Positions 57,001-62,920 of a stretch of DNA of 64,000 nucleotides are shown piece by piece. Every line of letters starts with the position of its first letter. Position 1 is the first letter of the stretch. Below the pieces are notes generated by a model that had not been told where the DNA came from, did not search any database, and saw nothing but the letters and a program-made list of their open reading frames with translations. The translations under genes were made by a program, and so were the position numbers. The stretch is taken from assembly GCF_040436345.1 (NCBI RefSeq), contig NC_133230.1, forward strand, positions 7,957,297 to 8,021,296, read 5' to 3'. This DNA comes from Pagrus major (lineage: Eukaryota > Chordata > Actinopteri > Spariformes > Sparidae).

Positions 57001-60000
57001 ACTACAAATCCAGCCCTTCTCAGCATATATTCCTGCTACACTTGAGTGAATTCTTCTCAGTAATTAATTATCTTAATGTGGTTTACCATTGCAGGTGTTC
57101 AACGGACTGGCGATTCTGGCTTCCTTCGCGTCCAATGACGACCCGTATCAGGGTCCCAGAGACATCACTAAACCAGAACGCATGGTATGTGTGAGTTAGA
57201 TATGGTGCAGCTTCATCTTGTGCTTTGACTAAGGCCTTGTCCACACGTACTGGGGTATTTAGGGAAACAGAGTTTTAAAACAAAAATGATCTCTTTTTTT
57301 ACATAACATTCAAAGTGCACAAATGCAGATACAACACAATAAAATAAATGAAAGACAAAAACAATTTCACAGGAAAAAAGCTATAAATAGCTGAAGTGTC
57401 CATCTTTTCTACATAAACTAAGACAGGCTGACATTTTATCGGGAATCTGTATTTTTCCTTGTATGACAGGCGGACTACCTTCAGCCGAAGCTGCTGGGAA
57501 TTCTCGCCTTCTTCAACATGCAGCTGCTCAGCTCCAGCGCAGGAGAGAAGGATCGCAAGAAGCTGGTGTGTGATCCACAGCTGACAACTAATTTAATACC
57601 TTGTATTTTAAAATGTATTCTGTCAGTGAGAGAATTCACGGAGGTCCTGTTTGAAGTCAGTACTAGTACAGTCTGCTTAGCTTGTGTAGTATAAAAGTGT
57701 CCACCTATTTTGTGTGCAGGCGTTGACAAGTGTGATGGCTCTAATGCGACTGATGGGCTCCAAACACATCAGCTCTGTCAGAGTAAAGATGATGACGACG
57801 CTCCGCACGGGCCTTCGATACAGAGAGGACTTCCCTCTGCTCTGCTGCCAGTTAGTAAACACACTCACACACACTCAACCTGACATGTTACAGACTGACA
57901 AGACAGACAATTCCTAACTTTTAACTGTTAAATACTTGATTAACTAACTGATACTGTGATTAACTCAAACACCTGTGTCTGATTCTGTGTATTAAATCCG
58001 TCTTCCTGTTTGAACAGGACGTGGGAGTGTTTTGTGAGGAGCGTGGAGCCGACACACTTGGGCCCTCTCCTGAGTCATGTTATTGTTGCACTCCTGCCCC
58101 TGATCCCACTGCAGCCCAAAGAAACAGCCGCTATTATCCGCTTCCTGATACTGGACAACAGGTAACACACACAAAAAATAAAATATAGGGATTTTGTCAT
58201 TTTGGCTCATCAGTTTCTAAATGTACACATTCACTGGGCAAAATAATAACTATTAAGTAGATAGTTCCCATCACATGCGCATAATTAAAGCATCGTCATG
58301 TATCGGCTGTCATATCGGCAGAAATTATCATTTCAGGCCGATGCTGATATTTCATTTTAAAGCCTTTGTTCACTGATACGACGAATTGCCGATATTATCA
58401 TGCATCCCAAATAAAATTAAGATAAATGTGGAAAAATGACCAAACAAAGCCTGTTAAGAATGTTACACATCCAAACTTGTAAAGTTCATAACCAAAATAA
58501 TTTTTAATAATTTTGTTTTCATGCTTTAGTTTAAATGTTACTTTTTACGTCAAAGCAACATTTTATAACCTCAAAAAATAGTACCTGAGTTTTTCTACAC
58601 TGAAAAATAAAATGAATCAAATAAATACAAAACTACGGAAGCCCAAAGGGCCATGCATTCATACATTTTATTTCCTCCGTTTTCCCGTGATAACGAGTTA
58701 ATTTCATTTGTTTTCTCGAGATCTCGAGTTATTATCTCGAAATAACAACTGCCATTTTCCCAAGATAACGATATAATTAATTCGAGATCTCGAGATAACG
58801 AAACTTTGTTTTCCCGAGATAACAATATAATTAATTTGAGATCTCGAGATAACGAGACTTTGTTTTCCCGAGATAACGATATAATTAATTTGAGATAGAC
58901 CTGAGATTTCCATCACACACAAGCGGCATGGCATGTCAGTTAGTCTCTCAGTCATCATCCGGTATCCATGGAGACGCCCAGGACCTCGTAGCTGGTCAGC
59001 TATGTAATTAACAACAACATCAGGCTCACTTAGATTGCGCCGCTGATATAGCTGAAGCCTTGCTAACAGTCTTTTTAGATTACGCACACTAATGTGTATA
59101 TTATCTGTGGCGTAATGCTATTTCAGCCTGTGTCAGGCCTTGATTGAAAAGATATGTGACGTGGTGATCGATATGCTCCTGCTCCTCTGACATTGCTACA
59201 CTGAATCGTGTTTCCTGCAATGATTTAATATACTACACTATCGTTTTGTTTTCTCAAGATCTCAAATTGATAATATCGTTATCTCGGGAAAACAAAGTTT
59301 CGTTATCTCGAGAAAATTATCTCGGGAAAACAAAGTTTCGTTATCTCGAGATCTCAAGAAAGTTATCTCGTTATCTCGGGAAAACAAAGTTTCGTTATCT
59401 CGAGATCTCAAGAAAGTTATCTCGTTATCTCGGGAAAACAAAGTTTCGTTATCTCGAGATCTCAAGAAAGTTATCTCGGGAAAACAAAGTTTCGTTATCT
59501 CGGGAAAACAAAGTTTCGTTATCTCGAGAAAATTATCTTGTTATCTCGGGAAAACAAAGTCTCGAGATCTCGAGAAAATTATCTCGTTATCTCGGGAAAA
59601 CAAAGTTTCGTTATCTCGAGATCTCGAGAAAATTATCTCGTTATCTCGGGAAAACAAAGTCTCGAGATCTCGAGAAAATTATCTCGTTATCTCGGGAAAA
59701 CAAAGTTTCGTTATCTCGAGAAAATTATCTCGTTATCTCGGGAAAACGGCAGTTTTTATTTCGAGATAATAACTCGAGATCTCGAGAACAAATTTAATTA
59801 ACTCATTATCACGGGAAAATGGAGGAAATAAAATGTATGAATGCATGGCCCTTTAGGGCTTCCGTACAAAACAAAGCCCATGTTTTGATTTAGAAATGAG
59901 CAGACAATTAAAGACTTCCGACATCAGAGATCTAATTCAGTCATTTTCCCACAGGGAAGAAGTGAACGACTACCTCCATGAGATTTACTTCCTGCCAGAC

Positions 60001-62920
60001 CACCCTGAGCTGAAAGACATCCACACTGTTCTGCAGAACTACAAGAAGGTTAGTATGGACAAGAAGGCGATCGCGATGAAGTAAATGAAGGTTGCTGATG
60101 GTGATGAGGGTTATTTGTCGTCATCAGTGATGTTAAAGATATAATATCCGATTCCCTGCAGCTGACAGCCAGCAGCAGTGACCTGGCCGAAGCGCTGCAG
60201 CTCTCCATGAGAGCCGTACAGCATGAAAACGTTGACGTCAGGATTCATGCACTGACCAGCCTCAGAGACATGATGCACAGCCAGCAGGTACACGAACATA
60301 CACACACATTTTAAGACAGCCACCTCAGAAAGGACCAGAGCTCAAGCCTGTTGTTTTTAATCTTTGATCCGCTACCATAAATATTACTTTTTGTGTGTGC
60401 AGGAGTGGCTGCTGCGGCAGGTGTGTGCAAGTGAGGCGGTGGAGCCGGTCATCTCCAACCTGGTGTCAGTGCTGCTGAAGGGCTGCCAGGACTCAGCCCC
60501 AGAGGCCCGGCTCCTCTGTGGGGAGTGTCTGGGGGAGCTGGGGGCCGTGGACCCCGGACGTCTGGACCTGTCACACACACACACCCATGGTGACCGCAAC
60601 ACCTTCGTGGTAAGAGAGACAAGACCAAAGCTGTACATATATACAGGGCACGAAACTTACAAATTCACAGTTTTACGTATTTCTTAACATTTTTATACAG
60701 CTGACTGACATAAATTGAACACAAAAAGCCATAGACAAACATGTATTTGTTTGATTGAGGATAAAAGTCTATTTTTCTTTATACAGAGTGGGGTTGATGA
60801 TCCCAACTTCGCCTACGACCTTCTGACTGAGCTGACCAGAACATTTCTGGCTTACGCTGACGACGTGAGAGCACAGGACTCTGCTGCTTATGCAATACAG
60901 GTACACACACACACACGTGCTACACTCATACTTGACACTGTGTGTGCACTTTGGTACCTTTTCTGTGCTCATCTCATGTGTTGGTGCACCGCAGGAGCTG
61001 CTGTCCATCTTTGAGTGTCGTGAGGGTCGAACCGACTCACCAGGGCGCCGTCTGTGGAGGAGATTCCCAGAGCAGATTCAAGAAATACTGGAACCACACC
61101 TCAACAGCAGGTACTAGAGTTTACATACACACTCTGATCCTGTCACACATAATTCAGCAAATCAAATATGAAGTTTCTTTTCCTCTGTTTTCCCTCTCTG
61201 TCTTTAGGTATAAGAGCAGCCAGAGGGAGGTTAACTGGTCCAAACTGAAGAAGCCAGTGTACTTGAGTAAGGGAGGCAGCAAGTTCTCTGATTGGTCGGC
61301 CACCTGGGCTGGATACCTCATCAGCAAGGTCAGCTGATTTATCCTTCACTTTAGAAAGGCCAAACAGATGCACATCAGTTGGATCATGTATCATCTCTTC
61401 CAAATTGTCGGATATTTAGCAGTTTTATCATATTTTATTATAATTATACTTGCTTTCTGTAGGCCTTTTTTCACAGATTATGAAGATGAAAACCAAAAAC
61501 AAAATAAACACATTTAAGGAAAATAATTTAACCATTTTTATGCATTTGTTGTCAATTTCCCACCTTTTATTAAAAAAGTTTCATTTTGTAGGTGAGACAT
61601 GAGCTGGCCAGCAGAGTCTTCACCTGCTGTAGTTTCATCATCAAACACGACTACAAGGTCACAATCTACCTGCTGCCTCATATTCTGCTCTACATGCTGC
61701 TGGGCTGCACACCTGCAGAGCAACGGGAGGTGAGGAAACATCTGCATCATGTGCACTTGCACAAGAAGTTTGTGCAAATTTGGCTGAGTTTTTTAGTAAT
61801 AATAACACGCCTGCTTCCAGGTAACGGAGGAGATGCTGGCCGTGTTGAAGGACGGGGATGGAAGAGGAGGAGGGCGGTGTCAGGAGACTGCCTCCAGCCT
61901 ATCACAGCTCAGCATTCAGACTGTGTTCAGCATGTTGTCCCACCTGATGCAGTGGAGTCGCCACATCCTGTACTCCAAACCCAAAAACAACGGTTAGAGA
62001 CCAAAACAAAAACATACTCTTTTCTTGCTTGGTTCATATCTTGAGTGTTATTCAAAGAGATCTGAAGACTGTTCTGAAATCACCTGCGTTGCATAAGTCA
62101 GCAACAACAGAACAGACAATTACTAAGATGAAAATATGGGAAATATTCACACATATTCACACGTATCTGCATGATTACATTCATGATTAATTAAGGCTTG
62201 AAGTAACAAACAAAAATGTTTTATTGCAGAGAGTGGGGATTATCAGCGTGTGGTGGCCTTCCTAAAGGGTATCCCACAGGACGTTCTGGCGAAGGCCTCT
62301 CTGCGCTCCAAAGCGTACACTCGTGCCCTCATGCACTTTGAAGCCTACATCTTAGAAAACAAGGAGAACATACAGGACCATCTCACCTTCCTGCAGGTCA
62401 GACAACAAATTAACTGTCATTTAAATCTATTTCTTTGATAACATGTGTGAGCGCATTTCTTTTCCCTCTTGATTAATCCAAAAGTAGTTGCTTGAGAACA
62501 TGTCGACATGGTGCTGGTTTCTTCGAGGCATAATACCAATATATGTTGATGCTTCACAGAACTACAGTTATTAGAGTTTTTGGTGCCATTTGACATCAAA
62601 ATCAGAATATTACAAAGTTATACTTTCTGATTATAATCTACAATATGACAAATAAAAGCAGGATCATATATTAACTAATCAGACAGATGTTCAAAGCGAT
62701 TAAATATGTACTAAACTAAAATGTTATTTATTTATTTATTTATTTAATTTTGCAGACACTGTACGCTGCGATGCATGAGCCCGATGGAGTAAGGGGGGTC
62801 AACGCCCTGAGGAGGGAGGAGCCGTCGTTACGAGAACAGATACTGGAGCACGAGAGCATCGGGCTGCTCCGAGACGCAACTGCCTGCTACGACCGAGCCA
62901 TACAGCTGGAGTCAGACCAG

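Follow-up and report, generated by a model that had tools for sequence, protein, structure and literature searches.

Results

Structure of the element and its place in atr

The window, which is the whole 64-kb stretch of DNA that was analysed, carries in an intron of atr a transposon of 1,233 bp (58634-59866) with TACGG..CCGTA ends, the terminal letters being TACGGAAGCCC on the left and GGGCTTCCGTA on the right. The element is bordered by two unstranded copies of the target site duplication CAAAAC (58628-58633 and 59867-59872) that are identical at 6/6 positions. Its left arm of 264 bp (58634-58897, plus strand) combines the terminal inverted repeat with 2.6 copies of a 54-bp unit, its core (58898-59242, minus strand) holds the broken remains of a transposase N-terminal region in two frames, and its right arm of 624 bp (59243-59866, minus strand), located 5' of these remains, consists of subterminal units at 59276-59746 and the terminal inverted repeat. 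The outermost inverted-repeat block measures 74 nt and is 92% complementary, so that the terminal inverted repeats exceed 30 bp, and further complementary blocks follow inward. An 18-base terminus occurs twice in the 64-kb window at three or fewer mismatches, as compared to 0.02 occurrences expected.

The atr exon located 3' of the element (59955-60051, plus strand) was delimited from its AG and GT signals and encodes ATR (PDB chain 9l4d_A, E 2e-9), which places 88 bp between the element and the exon. The element includes neither the acceptor (CCCACAG) nor the pyrimidine-rich tract that belongs to it. These results uphold the initial annotation, made from the sequence alone, with respect to the long inverted repeats, the exact 6-bp duplication and the distance of 88 bp to the atr exon.

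The subterminal repeats comprise approximately 9-10 units of 46-54 bp in the right arm (59243-59866) and, in the left arm, a related unit of 54 bp repeated 2.6 times (58755-58896). With up to two mismatches allowed, a 16-bp motif of the unit was located 18 times in the window, always within the element (15 right and 3 left), as compared to 0.01 expected. The description of about ten subterminal copies on one arm only is therefore correct as to the number and incorrect as to the restriction, as an array is present on both arms and one of the two is longer. Three of the right-arm units (59317-59478) are identical, with 0/108 mismatches at a lag of 54, and the left-arm units show 5/88 mismatches. 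The units are internally palindromic as well as subterminal in position. The element also contains 37 WGATAR (GATA-type) motifs, with 28 of these in the right arm (59243-59866).

A transposase-bearing relative on C9

The remnant in the core comprises two minus-strand fragments in different frames (58889-59117 and 59101-59232). A Pfam scan of this remnant returned nothing above the cut-off, and it was recognized as a transposase N-terminal region through comparison with a second locus, L046. The genome contains at least 154 matches to the Pfam integrase core domain rva_4, a count obtained from 150 scored of 294 candidates, and one of these matches, on C9, adjoins a copy of the core of the window element (L046). 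Reading inward from its right end, L046 presents TACGGAAGCCCTAAAGGG..., a 1.9-unit array of 54-bp units, an ATG and a frame of 237 amino acids. Residues 1-27 of this frame are 96% identical (26/27) to one of the window fragments and residues 32-86 are 91% identical (50/55) to the other, in agreement with the earlier reading of the core as an IS3-transposase-like remnant. The core retains this broken N-terminal piece, and the reported loss of coding capacity is likewise supported.

The remainder of the L046 frame matches rva_4 (E 1.6e-20) and, weakly and below the cut-off, rve (4e-4), with no further Pfam matches. Putative catalytic residues, assigned by motif, are D136, D195 and E235 with spacings of 58 and 39 residues, and an in-frame stop directly follows the third. 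No credible left end is present in the 3.5 kb read from the right end of the C9 copy (L046, L054 and L090); a loose left-end match in L090 agrees only in the first few bases and was judged to be due to chance. Given the stop after E235 and the left end that was not found, the C9 copy is itself broken. The anticipated transposase with matching ends is thus represented by a DDE core and one end, and L046 shows, on one side only, the kind of transposase that would belong to these ends.

Two ends and a whole transposase were combined in none of the copies among the window and the 80 fetched loci. A 314-aa open frame on C11 was considered as an autonomous copy and rejected, as its transposase N-terminal region runs straight into the repeat array. 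A Phmmer comparison of the C9 transposase fragment with PDB chains returned a single irrelevant weak match (E 0.068). The rva_4 matches in the genome fall into several score classes, some with identical scores on many contigs, which suggests that the genome harbors further repeat families with an integrase.

Family copies and target sites

The searched genome comprises 786 Mb in 25 contigs, with the window on C16. Scoring covered 40 of the 866 first-look candidates from a DNA search with the whole element and 150 of the 697 from a search with the core peptide, all 150 of which matched. The sample consists of the window and 80 loci (L009-L088) that represent the best-scored copies of the DNA search and 40 of the 150 core-peptide rows (20 best and 20 lower). 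Removal of 6 duplicates and of 10 sources without two recognizable ends reduced the 81 sources to 65 distinct copies; 3 of the 65 derive from the rearranged loci L037, L041 and L045, for which the central core and its nearest ends were counted. The window element is accordingly one member of a large non-autonomous family in its genome, and the initial annotation is upheld as to the existence of other copies. The other copies end in TACGG..CCGTA or in single changes such as TACAG.

A target duplication of 6 bp is also the rule elsewhere in the family, being perfect in 44 of the 65 copies and matched at 5/6 positions in another 9; the 12 copies with four or fewer matching bases presumably reflect decay, rearrangement or wrong ends. 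Where the duplication is perfect (44 copies), it begins with C or G in 32/44 and ends with one of these in 33/44, and A or T occupies the four positions between them in 37, 39, 39 and 36 copies, respectively, as compared to 64% A+T (563/880) in the bases that flank the same copies. These counts indicate a symmetrical target, S-W-W-W-W-S, which CAAAAC fits.

The leftmost segment of the core, approximately 70 bp in length (window 58900-58967), is present in only some copies; among the 40 loci L009-L048, the full core was matched in 7 (L012, L013, L015, L020, L024, L033 and L034). This patchy distribution suggests two subfamilies, one of which carries a further deletion.

Age of the family

The mean divergence of the core from the majority is 1.8% among the 32 cores of the first sample, and the window core, at 3.6%, is the joint highest of the 32. 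The latter differs at 10 positions (3 private, 4 of the CpG type) and has a further 8 gap columns. The CpG observed/expected ratio is 1.62 in the element versus 0.48 in the window. An exact duplication, which the initial annotation had taken to suggest a recent insertion, is by itself a weak sign of recency, and the low core divergence and the CpG ratio are better ones. Recency holds for the family, which is young, and less so for the window copy, which is not among its youngest members.

Variation in arm length

In the first sample, collected with the window element as query, 24 of the 32 single-core copies have a right arm that exceeds the left (p 0.008). This bias is absent from the copies found with the core peptide, where 12 of the 36 have the longer arm on the right (p 0.42; 4/40 loci unpaired, and 6/36 copies, including the window, shared with the first sample), and one-sided expansion was therefore rejected as a trait of the family. 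The bias of the first sample is best explained by ascertainment, since the query was itself a long-armed copy.

The core-found copies are mostly short, with 22/36 measuring 641-821 bp and median arms of 247 bp (left) and 226 bp (right). Among all 65 copies the commonest lengths are 246-247 bp on the left (20/65) and 226 bp on the right (8/65), and arms over 300 bp number 15 on the left and 27 on the right in a pool that still includes the biased first sample and in which left-arm figures are inflated for copies with the 70-bp core extension (334 for the window, where the true arm is 264). The longest arms in single-core copies reach 676 bp (left) and 2,940 bp (right, in L011). In L011 (1975-4568) the right arm holds approximately 48 units of 54 bp in a satellite-like array, and the 6-bp duplication (GTTTCA) is intact.

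Pairs of expanded arms (over 300 bp) were set against pairs of arms of 300 bp or less, the right arm of L011 being excluded for its length. Edit distances below 10% were found for 2/325 pairs of expanded right arms versus 146/703 among the shorter, and for 1/105 pairs of expanded left arms versus 407/1,225 among the shorter, a contrast that is overstated because longer arrays have more room to differ. The right arm closest to that of the window is at an edit distance of 20%. Expansion thus affects left as well as right arms, and almost every expanded arm is confined to a single copy. The arm data fit a minisatellite-like turnover and give no sign that transposition propagated the longer arms.

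Rearranged loci

Two loci, L041 (~1839) and L045 (~1751), are head-to-tail dimers that each lie inside one perfect 6-bp duplication (GATTAC and ACAAAC). At each junction two ends adjoin directly, one of them short of 10 bp, and one junction is the reverse complement of the other. In bacteria, IS3 elements give rise to circles with joined ends and to dimers. By analogy, IS3EU might move via a joined-ends intermediate that leaves head-to-tail dimers behind, although we consider this unlikely, and two dimers with damaged junctions are too few cases to argue from. Locus L037 (1586-4176) contains three copies of the element and was rejected as a trimer within one duplication, as its cores sit in a tandem duplication of 831 bp that extends into the host flank, with repeats up to 100% identical. 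This is a recent local duplication that postdates the insertion.

Discussion

Origin of the element and its arms

The window element is very probably a non-autonomous deletion derivative of IS3EU type that was mobilised in trans and whose arms are subject to a minisatellite-like instability comparable to that of Foldback and Galileo elements. The derivative would have lost everything past approximately residue 86 of a transposase of the L046 type. Its insertion into the atr intron would have depended on an IS3EU transposase supplied in trans that recognizes the terminal repeats, and we infer, as the initial annotation had supposed, that the element was mobilised in this manner. The transposase presumably cut an S-W-W-W-W-S target with cuts six bases apart. 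The number of 46-54-bp units may then have shifted through slippage or unequal exchange in the manner of a minisatellite, separately in every copy and on either arm. The element is most likely passive DNA within the atr intron.

The arrays could instead be binding sites of the transposase, with longer arms favored because they raise mobility. The internally palindromic structure and subterminal position of the units agree with such a role, the authors of the Galileo study discuss tandem subterminal repeats as secondary transposase sites open to positive selection (PMC3573991), and the right arm is longer in 24/32 copies of the first sample. However, that sample was found with a long-armed copy, the core-found sample has no such bias (12/36), and 22/36 of its copies are only 641-821 bp in length. 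Since almost no expanded arm is shared, it seems that copies with long arms have not been successful sources. The selected arm expansion that the initial annotation had considered possible is not supported, given long arms on either side, nearly all private, with no side bias in the core-found sample, and we regard this explanation as quite unlikely. The units as such may still be bound by the transposase.

It is highly improbable that the arms act on the host, with GATA-type motifs and CpGs by which the insertion would serve atr as an enhancer or silencer. The element does have 30 WGATAR motifs per kb versus 2.8 per kb in the window, together with its raised CpG ratio (1.62 versus 0.48), but the motif is part of the family-wide unit and its density follows from the array. 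The element almost certainly does not belong to the Foldback/Galileo lineage of the P superfamily, which it resembles in its long arms with variable internal tandem repeats, as described for Galileo and Tetris, as its 6-bp duplications and TACGG..CCGTA ends argue against this placement and the relative with a matching end encodes an rva_4/rve integrase core rather than a P-type transposase.

The family provides a well-sampled vertebrate case of IS3EU-type target choice (S-W-W-W-W-S). It indicates that a short element of this type can bear fast-changing, Foldback-like minisatellite arms, of 2.9 kb in one copy, and an array of that size is possibly a seed of satellite DNA. For surveys of such families, a long-armed query can create a false one-sided bias in arm length.

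Comparison with known systems

IS3EU families are described with TA..TA ends and usually 6-bp duplications (PMC10045372), and fungal IS3EU elements that bear TET with TAYGG..CCRTA ends and terminal repeats over 30 bp (PMC12730594). The family of the window element resembles IS3EU/GingerRoot in its TA..TA ends of the TAYGG..CCRTA type, its terminal repeats over 30 bp and its 6-bp duplications. The C9 relative, which shares one of the ends, is also alike in its integrase-type DDE transposase, whose presumed first D at 136 lies within the published range of 100-300 (PMC10045372, PMC12730594). The ends, duplication length and transposase type thus agree with IS3EU at the level of sequence, and the window copy differs in being non-autonomous with variable minisatellite arms. 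IS3EU itself is reported from killifish genomes (PMC12763893), and IS3EU-like pieces have been described in satellite and repeat families of oyster and Tribolium (PMC8268682, PMC5844308). Each part of the present element is known, and their combination in one IS3EU-type family may be undescribed; in the open-access literature no paper was found with both IS3EU and subterminal, which says little beyond that literature.

The closest parallels for the arms come from Drosophila. Galileo (P superfamily) likewise has long arms whose internal tandem repeats vary on one side independently of the other, the longest arms being those of non-autonomous copies, and its authors view tandem subterminal repeats as possible secondary transposase sites that may be positively selected (PMC3573991). 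It is unlike the present family in its own, different transposase, its 7-bp duplications and a repeat unit of approximately 210 bp (PMC3573991). In Tetris, an apparently non-autonomous foldback element of Drosophila virilis, arm-internal tandem repeats reach satellite-like arrays of kb size comparable to that of L011, although its unit is approximately 220 bp and the likeness is drawn by description and not by sequence (PMC4079207). In this descriptive sense, rather than as a statement of lineage, the window element has the Foldback-like architecture of long inverted arms with internal tandem repeats in variable number.
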